Both the position numbers and the translations under genes were made by a program. Positions 14,911 to 40,779 of a stretch of DNA of 64,000 bases are shown here, piece by piece; the stretch's first letter is position 1, and every line of letters starts with the position of its first letter. The notes under the pieces were generated by a model that saw nothing but the letters and a program-made list of their open reading frames with translations, was not told the DNA's origin and made no database searches. Source of the DNA: Methanofollis aquaemaris (GTDB lineage: Archaea; Halobacteriota; Methanomicrobia; Methanomicrobiales; Methanofollaceae); contig NZ_CP036172.1 in the NCBI RefSeq assembly GCF_017357525.1, positions 744,001-808,000 on the forward strand, in the 5' to 3' direction.

Positions 14911-15600
14911 ATGACAGCGATACCGACGCGACCGCATGTGCTGATGATGTCTGAGATCACGGTGGACGGCAAACTCACCCTGAAAAGGGGGGCGTCCAGC
15001 AAGATTCTCATGCAGCACATGGCCCCAGAAACCGAGGTGCTCCTCCACCAGACCCGCGCCGAATGCGGCGCCATCATGGTCGGGTCCAGGACCATTGCCA
15101 TCGATAACTCCTACCTGACCGTCCGCCTTGTCGAGGGCAAAAGCCCGCTCAGGGTCATCCCCTCCAGCATGGCCGCCATATCCCCTGACGCCAACGTGCT
15201 CAACAGCGACGCACCCACCCTCGTCGCCGTCTCGAGGGCGGCACCTGAAGAGCGGGTCGCCGCGATCCGGGCGAAAGGCGCCGATGTCGTCGTCTGCGGG
15301 AAGGAACATGTCGACCTCCCTGCTCTCATGCAGGTGCTCAGGGAAGATTACGGCGTTGAGAAGATGATGATCGAGGGCGGCCCGACCCTCAACTGGCATA
15401 TGTTGAGACATGGCCTTGTCGACGATATCCGACTCATCCACCTCCCCTTCATCGTGGGCGGCGAGGACACGCCCTCCCTGGTCGGAGGGATGCATATCGA
15501 GTCAGAGGACGAGATGATCCGCCTCGATCTCAAGAAGTATTATATGTGCGGGACCAATCTGGTAACCGAATACACGGTCCAGTATGGGAATAATGAATGA
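14911..15600 (+). CDS. 2,5-diamino-6-ribosylamino-pyrimidinone 5'-phosphate reductase (riboflavin/F420 pathway)
   Basis: From MTAIPTRPHVLMMSEITVDGKL the protein is 229 residues, the standard length of the archaeal RibD-reductase-like enzyme. Family marks are the SEITVDGKL start, AIMVGSRTIAIDN, a central VVCGKEHVDL and EKMMIEGGPTLNWHML. It reduces the ribosylamino pyrimidine intermediate made from GTP with NAD(P)H, on the way to riboflavin and coenzyme F420. The upstream in-frame ATG at 14845 would add unlikely residues; the TATA-like CTTTTAAAT at about 14877-14885 supports 14911. Its stop overlaps sppA by four bases. Confidence 0.9.
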   Translation: MTAIPTRPHVLMMSEITVDGKLTLKRGASSKILMQHMAPETEVLLHQTRAECGAIMVGSRTIAIDNSYLTVRLVEGKSPLRVIPSSMAAISPDANVLNSDAPTLVAVSRAAPEERVAAIRAKGADVVVCGKEHVDLPALMQVLREDYGVEKMMIEGGPTLNWHMLRHGLVDDIRLIHLPFIVGGEDTPSLVGGMHIESEDEMIRLDLKKYYMCGTNLVTEYTVQYGNNE

Positions 15601-16388
15601 AATTTCTCAGGGAAGAACTTGAACGCGTGCAAAAAAGGCGGAGACAGAAGAAATGGCTCGTCACAGGAGGGGCCACTCTCTTCGCCGCCATAGTCTCCGT
15701 CGTCATCATTTCTTTTGTCCTGATGCCCACGGTAACCGGGGAGGAGGTCGCCGTGATCAGGGTGGAGGGCGAACTCCTCACCGGCGACTTCTCTGGCGGA
15801 GGGTACGTGGGCAGCGAGGCCATCGGGAAAGAACTCAGAGAGGCCGCCGACGATCCCTTTGTGGAGGCAGTGGTGTTGCGGATCAACAGTCCTGGAGGCA
15901 GTCCTGCCGCCGCCCAGGAGGTGATCCGGGATCTGGAGTACACCCGGACGAAAAAACCGGTCGTCACCTCGATGGGAGACATGGCCGCCTCCGCGGCGTA
16001 CCTCATCGCCGCGCACACCGACCGGATCTACCTCTCCCCCGACACCGTCACCGGGAGCATCGGGGTGATCTGGCTCTTCCCTGACGAGAGCAAGTGGATG
16101 GAAGAAGAGGGCAGGCAGGTCGAGGTGGTGAAGTCGGGGGAGCAGAAAGATATGACCTCACCGTTCCGCCCCCTCACCGATAAAGAGCGGGCATATGCCC
16201 AGAAGATGGTGGATGAGAGTTTCGAGACCTTCATCGCCGACATCATGGAGGAACGCCCAGTGAAACGCGCCGATGTCGAGACGGCCAGGGTGATCAGGGG
16301 TGAAGAGGCTCTCTCCATCGGGCTCGCCGATGAGGAGGGGAACCTCTTCGATGCCATCGACGGGGCAAAGGCCCTCGCAACCACCTAG
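15597..16388 (+). CDS. sppA: Signal peptide peptidase SppA (serine-lysine protease)
   Basis: The 263-residue protein has a basic cytoplasmic start and one membrane anchor (about residues 20-43), followed by an external ClpP-fold domain. The nucleophile is Ser132 in MAASAAYLIA. The general-base lysine is probably Lys184 in SGEQKDM, matching the archaeal/bacterial SppA spacing. LRINSPGGSP is the conserved oxyanion-side motif. SppA degrades cleaved signal peptides in the membrane. It is coupled to the upstream gene (ATGA overlap). The TAG stop belongs to a CTAG that flanks the mobile-like repeat starting at 16389. Confidence 0.92.
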   Translation: MKFLREELERVQKRRRQKKWLVTGGATLFAAIVSVVIISFVLMPTVTGEEVAVIRVEGELLTGDFSGGGYVGSEAIGKELREAADDPFVEAVVLRINSPGGSPAAAQEVIRDLEYTRTKKPVVTSMGDMAASAAYLIAAHTDRIYLSPDTVTGSIGVIWLFPDESKWMEEEGRQVEVVKSGEQKDMTSPFRPLTDKERAYAQKMVDESFETFIADIMEERPVKRADVETARVIRGEEALSIGLADEEGNLFDAIDGAKALATT

Positions 16389-16769
16389 TGGCAATTCAAG
16401 AACAAAAAGTCGCCAACACGATGCAATTGAACGAGATCTCTCTCTATCCTCGCGTGAAGAGAATGTCGAGAACAACACCATCCTCTTCATGATCTCCTCT
16501 CTGCCTTCCCGGCCCAATCGCAATCTCAGGGGTCCGGGGGCAGCGCCCCCGGCGCGAGCGTGGGGGAAGGCACGTCGAACCGAAGGGCCGCCCCACAGAA
16601 AAACGAAGAAATTTATGTCACTCTCTCGCGCCGGGGGGAGACCCCCCGGAACCCCCCATCGCGAGGATAGGGACGGGTCGGCAACGAAGCGGTGATCCCG
16701 CTCGCTGCCCCGCCATGAAGAGCGTGATCCGAGGCCCCAAGGTCGGACCATTTGAGTGATGAACCGCCA
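16389..16769. mobile_element. MITE-like element with inverted ends and CTAG flanks (copy R4)
   Basis: The 381-bp non-coding block has ends TGGCAATTCA and, on the other strand, TGGCGGTTCA (8 of 10 identical). It is flanked on both sides by CTAG (16385-16388 and 16770-16773), which looks like a target-site duplication. Inside, in order, are modules D (16389-16497), C (16502-16572, outer arms TGCCTTCCC/GGGAAGGCA, inner hairpin CCGGGGGC-AGC-GCCCCCGG), F (16571-16630, reverse), B with a perfect hairpin CCGGGGGG-AGA-CCCCCCGG (16631-16649), and E (16708-16769). It encodes no transposase, so it would depend on one elsewhere. Confidence 0.72.
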
Positions 16770-18041
16770 CTAGATCATCGCGTGCGGGTCGGCCTTCATG
16801 AACTCCCGGCATACCGTGGTGGCATAGTGCCCGGGTGGGAGGGCGAAGGCGAGGCTGACGTCCTGCCCGGCGACCTCTGCCTTTATCTCAGTCCTGACAG
16901 CGATGGGCCTGAGTGTTCCCCGGTAGCGCAGCCCGACAAAATCGGACGCCCGCCCGAAGTCTTCCGCGGTGACCCCGTCCTCCTCAAGGAGGGCGGTCAT
17001 CCGCTCGTCGTCTTTCCCGATGGTCTCTCTTGGTTCTGAACCCGGCATGAAGAACGCGACCGCACACCGTCCCCTCTTCATATGGACCGAGACGATCCGT
17101 TTATTCTTCTCGGTCACCGTGTCCTCACGCCCGTTCGCAAAGAGAAGCCGTTCGCCAGGGAGAGGATCGTCAAGATTGGTCCCATCGGCAAGGCGCATCG
17201 AGAGCACCCTGTTGAAGAGCCAGGACTGGTAGGCCGAGACGAACATCGAGAGGAGCTTTGGCGGCAGGTTCTTGAGGGCCGCGGCATAGTCACCTGGTGC
17301 TCCGGCAAGCCCGGAGAGCACGGCCCGCTCAAAGCCGAGGTGGTGAGGAAGGGCGGCGATCGCCGGGCCGGGATCCCCGGTCTCAAGAAATGTCCGTCTC
17401 GTCTCCTGCACGTCGGGCGACTCATCAGGGAAGGCGAGGCCGACATAGGTATCGACGGCGGCCTGGTAGTCGCCGCGCAGGATCTCGCGGCCCACCAGGT
17501 GGGTGACCGGCCTGACCACCCCAAAACGCTGGAGCCCAAAGTAGTTGGGGAGACCGGTGGCGGCGGCGGCGGTGCAGGCCTCTACAGTGGCCTGGAGTGC
17601 CGGGCCGGTGCAACCCCTCACCATGATCGAGAAGCGGTTGCCGGCAAGCCCGCCCAGGGCAAGTTGGTGCTGGCTCCGGCCGACCGGTTGGAGTTCGATC
17701 TCCTTGAGGTGCACTCTCGCGACCGCCTCCTCGTCCACGTCATATATGGAGATATACTGGGTGGTGACCGCGTTCTTGTCCTTGGTCCCGGCCCAGGCGA
17801 TCCGTCGGTGGGAGATCCCCATTGCCGAGGCGATGGACTTCATCGCATGCTGGTGTTCCCAGTTCCGTTTGGTGAGCCGGCAGATGAGGTACGAGCCCTC
17901 ATCCGCAGGTTCAGCGAGCGGAACTTCCTCGACCTGGAAGTCCTCGGGAACAGCGCGCAGCACCCCGCCAACACCCGGAGTGTCGGTGACGTACCATGCC
18001 ATTCCCAGGTCGACCTCCAGGGGGTAGGGTGTCCGCATCAT
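16770..18041 (-). CDS. truD: tRNA pseudouridine(13) synthase TruD
   Basis: The 423-residue protein contains RIAWAGTKDKNAVTTQ, where the Asp of GTKDK is the catalytic nucleophile. It also has NRFSIMVRG and the NYFGLQRFG motif followed by a TruD-specific insertion domain. Its length matches archaeal members. It converts U13 (and in archaea possibly U35 of some tRNAs) to pseudouridine. It overlaps pth2 by four bases. The C-terminus ends at a TAG that is part of the CTAG flanking the repeat at 16389-16769. Confidence 0.95.
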   Translation of the reverse strand: MMRTPYPLEVDLGMAWYVTDTPGVGGVLRAVPEDFQVEEVPLAEPADEGSYLICRLTKRNWEHQHAMKSIASAMGISHRRIAWAGTKDKNAVTTQYISIYDVDEEAVARVHLKEIELQPVGRSQHQLALGGLAGNRFSIMVRGCTGPALQATVEACTAAAATGLPNYFGLQRFGVVRPVTHLVGREILRGDYQAAVDTYVGLAFPDESPDVQETRRTFLETGDPGPAIAALPHHLGFERAVLSGLAGAPGDYAAALKNLPPKLLSMFVSAYQSWLFNRVLSMRLADGTNLDDPLPGERLLFANGREDTVTEKNKRIVSVHMKRGRCAVAFFMPGSEPRETIGKDDERMTALLEEDGVTAEDFGRASDFVGLRYRGTLRPIAVRTEIKAEVAGQDVSLAFALPPGHYATTVCREFMKADPHAMI

Positions 18042-22360: not shown

Positions 22361-22800
22361 GGCTCTGTTGAATCCGGCATGAGGCGGGAGCACGCCTCAA
22401 GCATACCATAAGCATATCCCAAAACTCCCTGAGGCTTGAACATCGCCTTGAACTGGAGTCTTTCCTTACAGATGTTCTGAACCCTATCCTCCATCGGGGG
22501 GCTGGCAGCCCCCCGGACCCCCGCTGATGAAGATTGACAGGGGATCGCATCCCGTCTTCACGATTATCACTTTGCCTTCCCGCCCCAATCTTCATCCCGA
22601 GGGTCCTGGGGCAGAGCCCCCGGTGCGGTAGTGTGGGAAGGCATGAATGCATGGTTGCGCAACGAAGAGGAGAGGATCCCCCCACCACATCCATTGCTCT
22701 CTTCTGGGAGGGGGAGGTCTGGAGAGTTTTGGGATGACCTCCATATGAAAATTGTTCTGAGCAGCGCTTCGGAGTGTGGGAGGATCCTTGATCCCTCTCA
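22361..22800 (+). repeat. Composite dispersed repeat, split module A with B and C inside (copy R5)
   Basis: The 5' half of module A (GGCTCTGTTGAATCCGGCAT ... CGCCTCAAGCATACC, 22361-22407) and its 3' half (ATGAAAATTGTTCTGAGCAG ... GTGTGGGAGGATCCTTGAT, about 22745-22791) are separated by other modules. A reversed B block sits at 22490-22548 (CCCCCCGGACCCCCGCTGAT, AAGATTGACAGGGGATCG). A full C module lies at 22573-22643 (TGCCTTCCC ... GGGAAGGCA). This looks like insertion of B/C into, or recombination within, an A copy. Confidence 0.75.
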
Positions 22801-35007: not shown

Positions 35008-35310
35008 GGGCTCTGTTGAATCAGGCATGAACCCCTGGCTCAAGCATACGGGATGAAAATTTCTCGTTGCAGTTCTCCTGAGTGCGGAGGGATACTTGAT
35101 TCTTCTCCTTGCAACAGGGCACCTGAAGGATACGGTTCCATCGCCGCCCCCGGCCATCTTCACTATGGGGGTCCGGGATTGCGATTGGGCCGGGAAGGCG
35201 GAGGGGAGAACATGAAGAGGGTGGTGTCGTTCCCTCTGTTCTCTTCACGCGAGGAGAGAGATCTCGTTCAAGTGCATTCTCCTGGCGACCTTTTGTTCTT
35301 GACTCGCCAC
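35008..35310 (+). repeat. Composite dispersed repeat, modules A-B-C'-D (copy R7)
   Basis: Module A (35008-35102) begins GGCTCTGTTGAATCAGGCAT and includes CAAGCATACGGGATGAAAAT and GAGTGCGGAGGGATACTTGA. A shortened B (GCCGCCCCCGGCCATCTTCA, then GGGGGTCCGGG) follows. Half of C (GGGCCGGGAAGGCGG) comes next. Module D in reverse (35211-35310) closely matches the first 110 bp of the element at 16389, including AACGAGATCTCTCTC and CCTCGCGTGAAGAGAA on the minus strand. Module D ends at CTCGCCAC, matching the terminal TGGC of that element. Confidence 0.8.
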
Positions 35311-40718: not shown

Positions 40719-40779
40719 CCCCCCGTGAAGAGCGTGATCCGCGTCCCCGGGGTCAGACATTTAGGGGTTGACACGACAC
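40719..40779 (+). repeat. Isolated module E of the dispersed repeat (copy R8)
   Basis: It reads CGTGAAGAGCGTGATCCGCG then CCCCGGGGTCAGACATTTA, matching the right end of the element at 16389-16769 (ATGAAGAGCGTGATCCGAGG, CCCCAAGGTCGGACCATTT). No other module is attached, so it is a decayed remnant or a solo module. Confidence 0.6.

Follow-up and report, generated by a model that had tools for sequence, protein, structure and literature searches.

A MITE family of Methanofollis at the CTAG junction of sppA and truD, and its candidate IS630-family helper

The window, a 64,000-nucleotide stretch of the single contig (2.746 Mb) that makes up the genome of Methanofollis aquaemaris (G000), contains a 381-bp block lying between two CTAGs at the junction of the convergent genes sppA and truD. 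The block is a short (381–383 bp) element without a transposase ORF, and its terminal inverted repeats are common to many dispersed copies. It is very likely one copy of an old Methanofollis MITE family for which an IS630-family (Tc1/mariner-type) transposase acted in trans, its target here having been the CTAG overlap of the two genes. MITEs as a general kind are well known; that this is a new family of them, with a candidate IS630 helper, is well supported. The family appears to be undescribed in methanogens, and a search of the available literature for a Methanofollis MITE found none.

Results

The block was first delineated in a sequence-only reading of the window, which placed it at 16389–16769, and these coordinates hold when read back from the sequence (Table 1). 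That reading also took the flanking CTAGs to be the TAG stops of sppA and truD, with which both the ORFs and the Pfam matches agree. Open reading frames crossing the block had no Pfam match, and an Rfam search of the block likewise returned no match. The termini of the block (TGGCAATTCA at 16389–16398 and TGAACCGCCA at 16760–16769) form an imperfect inverted repeat that matches at 8/10 positions, or at 12/14 when CTAG is counted in; although they are real ends of the repeat family, the description "near-identical" was a little generous. The predicted fold of the block beats that of every shuffled sequence (z = -5.2), a strength attributable to its internal GC-rich hairpins.

Table 1. Features of the sppA–truD junction and further family copies in the window (strand and positions as in the window)
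Feature	Position	Strand	Details
S49 peptidase (sppA-like)	15597..16388	+	Peptidase_S49 E = 4e-32; C-terminus unchanged by insertion
Left CTAG	16385..16388	+	Stop TAG of S49 peptidase gene; putative TA target duplication 16386-16387; one shared CTAG in G002, G004, G006
MITE body	16388..16770	+	383 bp (G...C) if TA-only duplication; 381 bp (16389-16769) if CTAG duplicated
MITE left end	16389..16434	+	TGGCAATTCAAGAACAAAAAGTCGCC...; family consensus TGGCGAGTCAAGAACAAAAGGTCGCC
Internal GC-rich hairpin module, 71 bp	16502..16572	+	TGCCTTCCC...GGGAAGGCA; occurs outside MITE family too
MITE right end	16710..16769	-	TGGCGGTTCATCACTCAAATG... read inward
Right CTAG	16770..16773	-	Stop TAG of truD; putative TA target duplication 16771-16772
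truD, tRNA pseudouridine synthase D	16770..18041	-	TruD E = 6e-143; C-terminus MI* as in relatives
Second family copy, left end	35264..35309	-	Flank CTGG
Third family copy, right end	40721..40778	-	Flank CGAG read inward

A search of the whole genome for copies with the same ends, which had been proposed as a check, was successful. BLAST returned 55 matches to the block in G000, the best other copies being approximately 80–87% identical to it and some of these near full length. The termini of other copies coincide with these inverted repeats, whereas ends lying elsewhere had been named as evidence against the element. The left-end 19-mer occurred 24 times in the genome with no more than three mismatches, against 0 occurrences of the reversed control, and sequence-only models built for each end matched 36 left ends and 18 right ends at E <= 0.1. 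Both ends of the window copy match these models at E of about 1e-16, a value that arises partly by construction because both window end sequences were among those from which the models were built. Complete copies are mostly about 375–435 bp long, with shorter and longer ones also present. The left-end pattern with CTAG was identified in 8 of the 12 genomes of the genus Methanofollis; 220 further genomes from the order Methanomicrobiales all lacked it. As the copies are only about 80–87% identical, the family looks old, and this low identity suggests that the family elements in G000 are themselves old and probably inactive.

The hairpin module of about 70 bp has a wider distribution, being present at 22573–22643 of the window and, in both orientations, inside and outside the MITE (loci L001–L030). 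Other repeat subfamilies (for example L022/L025/L029, 93–94% alike over about 460 bp) have the hairpin core and no CTAG ends.

In three congeners (G002, G004 and G006), a single CTAG forms a 4-bp overlap in which both sppA and truD end, with the same C-terminal residues in truD; in the window species there are two CTAGs, one per gene, and the element lies in between. These are the more distant congeners, with TruD identities of about 71–73%, and the closest TruD relatives among named genomes are also Methanofollis (86%, then 72%). As had been claimed, both proteins are intact, with C-termini as given in Table 1. The alignment of this junction across relatives, also proposed earlier, therefore yielded an empty site with one CTAG in G002, G004 and G006, but the nearest species (G005, G003 and G001) have no clean empty sppA–truD site and carry other repeats there, without family ends. 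Because of these other repeats, the empty state has to be read from the more distant species, and it is the outgroup alone, with its single CTAG, that supplies the empty site and the target duplication. The block itself was absent from the orthologous junctions of other species, where its presence had been named as evidence that would count against insertion. The classification as a non-autonomous element (a MITE) is upheld by multiple copies, the absence of coding sequence, inverted ends and the single-CTAG junctions of the outgroups. At the G005 junction (locus L112), well over 1 kb is occupied by other, partly tandem hairpin repeats, so that the sppA–truD junction seems to be a place where repeats accumulate in this clade.

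Two further loci provide filled and empty sites. In G000, which has the element at this site, and in G005, which lacks it there, a bactofilin-like gene has the same terminus, ...GGGGAACTAG; the CTAG at the end of cobS is filled in G007 and empty in G002, G004, G006, G008 and others. Comparisons at the sppA–truD, bactofilin-like and cobS sites agree in indicating that CTAG predated the insertion. The alternative that CTAG forms part of the inverted repeat was considered and rejected, given that CTAG is already present at the empty sites of the three loci.

The sequence-only reading had further proposed a 4-bp duplication of a palindromic target. The pre-existing CTAG bears out the choice of target, but the duplicated sequence is more likely to be the central TA than all four bases of CTAG, because it is an IS630-family element, and not the PF01609 loci examined, that matches both ends of the family; this palindromic copy, taken alone, fits both. 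With TA target duplications, the element is probably 383 bp long (16388–16770). Left flanks across the genus, read into the element, were CTAG in 14 cases, CTGG in 10 and CCAG in one. Identical direct flanks are uncommon among complete copies; the CTAC/CTAC of one G003 copy fits a TA duplication. Several complete copies have CTGG on one side and CCAG on the other, an arrangement that is no direct repeat and does not fit a TA duplication; in such copies (for example G000:C1:886296 and G000:C1:2224102), the base adjoining the element differs on both sides and CTGG is read inward from each. A bias towards CTGG...CCAG flanks is not obviously expected from random, independent decay of CTAG.

An insertion sequence with matching inverted repeats, for which a search had also been advised, was found in G005, the closest relative, and belongs to the IS630 family. 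Two PF01609 loci of G005 showed a family end beside CTAG, and this end belongs to a separate, adjoining element of about 1.2 kb, present in two copies (L325 and L326) that are 90% identical and have CTAG on both sides of each. Its two overlapping ORFs constitute an IS630 transposase, with HTH domains, DDE_3 and a match to NF033545 (E = 8e-49). In both copies, seven consecutive A residues lie in the ORF overlap, as would be expected for frameshifting, and copy B contains one further in-frame stop. The left end of this element (TGTCGAGTCAATGACGAAAGGTCGC, compared with TGGCGAGTCAAGAACAAAAGGTCGC in the family) matches the family consensus at 21/25 positions and the window copy at 18/25. Scored against the MITE models, its ends gave E = 1e-5 to 5e-5 (left) and 2e-4 to 3e-4 (right), with each end in its proper place, and the likeness is limited to about 25 bp per end. 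The IS630 elements of G005 are thus a candidate autonomous partner with ends matching those of the MITE.

Discussion

Judging from these ends, the likely helper of the MITE family is probably an IS630-family transposon, known here from G005. A transposase of this family would bind both ends of the element and excise it, and the element would then insert at TA, preferably in a CTAG context, with duplication of the TA. At the window locus, the target would have been the 4-bp CTAG overlap ending both convergent genes. As this CTAG was common to both stops, sppA and truD would each keep a TAG stop and their proteins would be unchanged. More generally, because CTAG is a palindrome that reads TAG on both strands, each gene gains its own stop when CTAG is duplicated at a convergent overlap. 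We infer that the family owes its mobility to this IS630 lineage, that TA is what was duplicated and that movement has since stopped in this genome. IS630 elements are known to insert at TA and to duplicate it (PMC2170065), and a study cited there (Tenzen and Ohtsubo 1991) reportedly found preferential transposition to the TA in 5'-CTAG-3'.

The helper originally proposed was of IS5 type, and an IS5-group transposase that duplicates a 4-bp YTAR (CTAG) target could in principle have mobilised the family, as for MITEPsy1 and IS5. For IS5, CTAG is the commonest target and is duplicated (PMC5493358), MITEPsy1 inserts at CTAG or YTAA (PMC3189936), and the flank letters C, T and G of the family copies are about equally frequent. 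However, none of the PF01609 loci read, whether from the window's own genome or fetched from the genus (including a minority of the 48 G004 copies), has the MITE ends (TGGCGAGTCA...TGACTCGCCA) around its transposase. The two G005 loci that do show a family end owe it to the neighbouring IS630 copy, and it is the IS630 element that matches both MITE ends, leaving movement by an IS5-group transposase unlikely.

Immobility of the block also has to be weighed, since a conserved intergenic structured element, acting as terminator-like or regulatory hairpins for both convergent genes and spread by recombination, would account for its strong fold and for the recurrence of its hairpin module outside the MITE family. 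We consider this very unlikely, as the orthologous junction in outgroups lacks the block, copies with fixed ends adjoin unrelated genes and Rfam offers no match. Any influence still exerted on the 3' ends of sppA and truD transcripts could be a secondary one. IS481-type elements have ends beginning with TG and a reported target of NCTAGN, to which the TG...CA ends and CTAG target of the MITE both conform. Nevertheless, rve (PF00665) was found in just 2 of the 12 genus genomes, the window's own genome being without it, and three PF00665 loci (IS481/IS3 type) had no matching ends, so that mobilisation by an IS481-type (rve) transposase seems extremely improbable.

Probable mobilisation by an IS630-family transposase would place the window MITE alongside known members of that family (Tc1/mariner-like; for example IS630 and ISY100), with which it shares the CTAG/TA target and imperfect inverted ends. 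The G005 IS630 element carries the same ends and a transposase in two overlapping frames; the MITE lacks a transposase ORF, and only the roughly 25 bp at each end are common to the two. MITEPsy1 of Pseudomonas syringae is also a non-coding MITE that inserts at CTAG, but differs in its 100-bp length, 18-bp ends, relationship to ISPsy2, 4-nt duplication and unrelated sequence (PMC3189936). The MITEs of Haloquadratum walsbyi and other archaea are likewise transposase-free, mostly under 500 bp and similar to an IS only in their terminal bases, although their sequences and hosts are different; for archaeal MITEs, the helper may be broken or missing from the genome (PMC3119063).

Target choice can render an insertion harmless, and sppA–truD is a neat case. 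CTAG is strongly depleted in the window: it occurs 9 times, where base composition would predict about 232 occurrences and trinucleotide frequencies 38. The sppA–truD insertion accounts for two of these nine, and only one lies inside a called gene (simple gene calls). As CTAG is nearly absent inside genes, a CTAG-seeking element would insert chiefly into intergenic DNA or at stops, although selection against harmful insertions would give the same placement. A preference for CTAG, together with its near-confinement to gene ends and intergenic DNA, could turn stop codons and the 4-bp overlaps of convergent genes into recurrently used safe sites, at which overlapping convergent genes are repeatedly separated without protein change; we regard this generalisation as plausible, though we lean slightly against it. 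Across the genus, 8 of the 46 distinct left ends coincide exactly with a TAG that terminates a long ORF.
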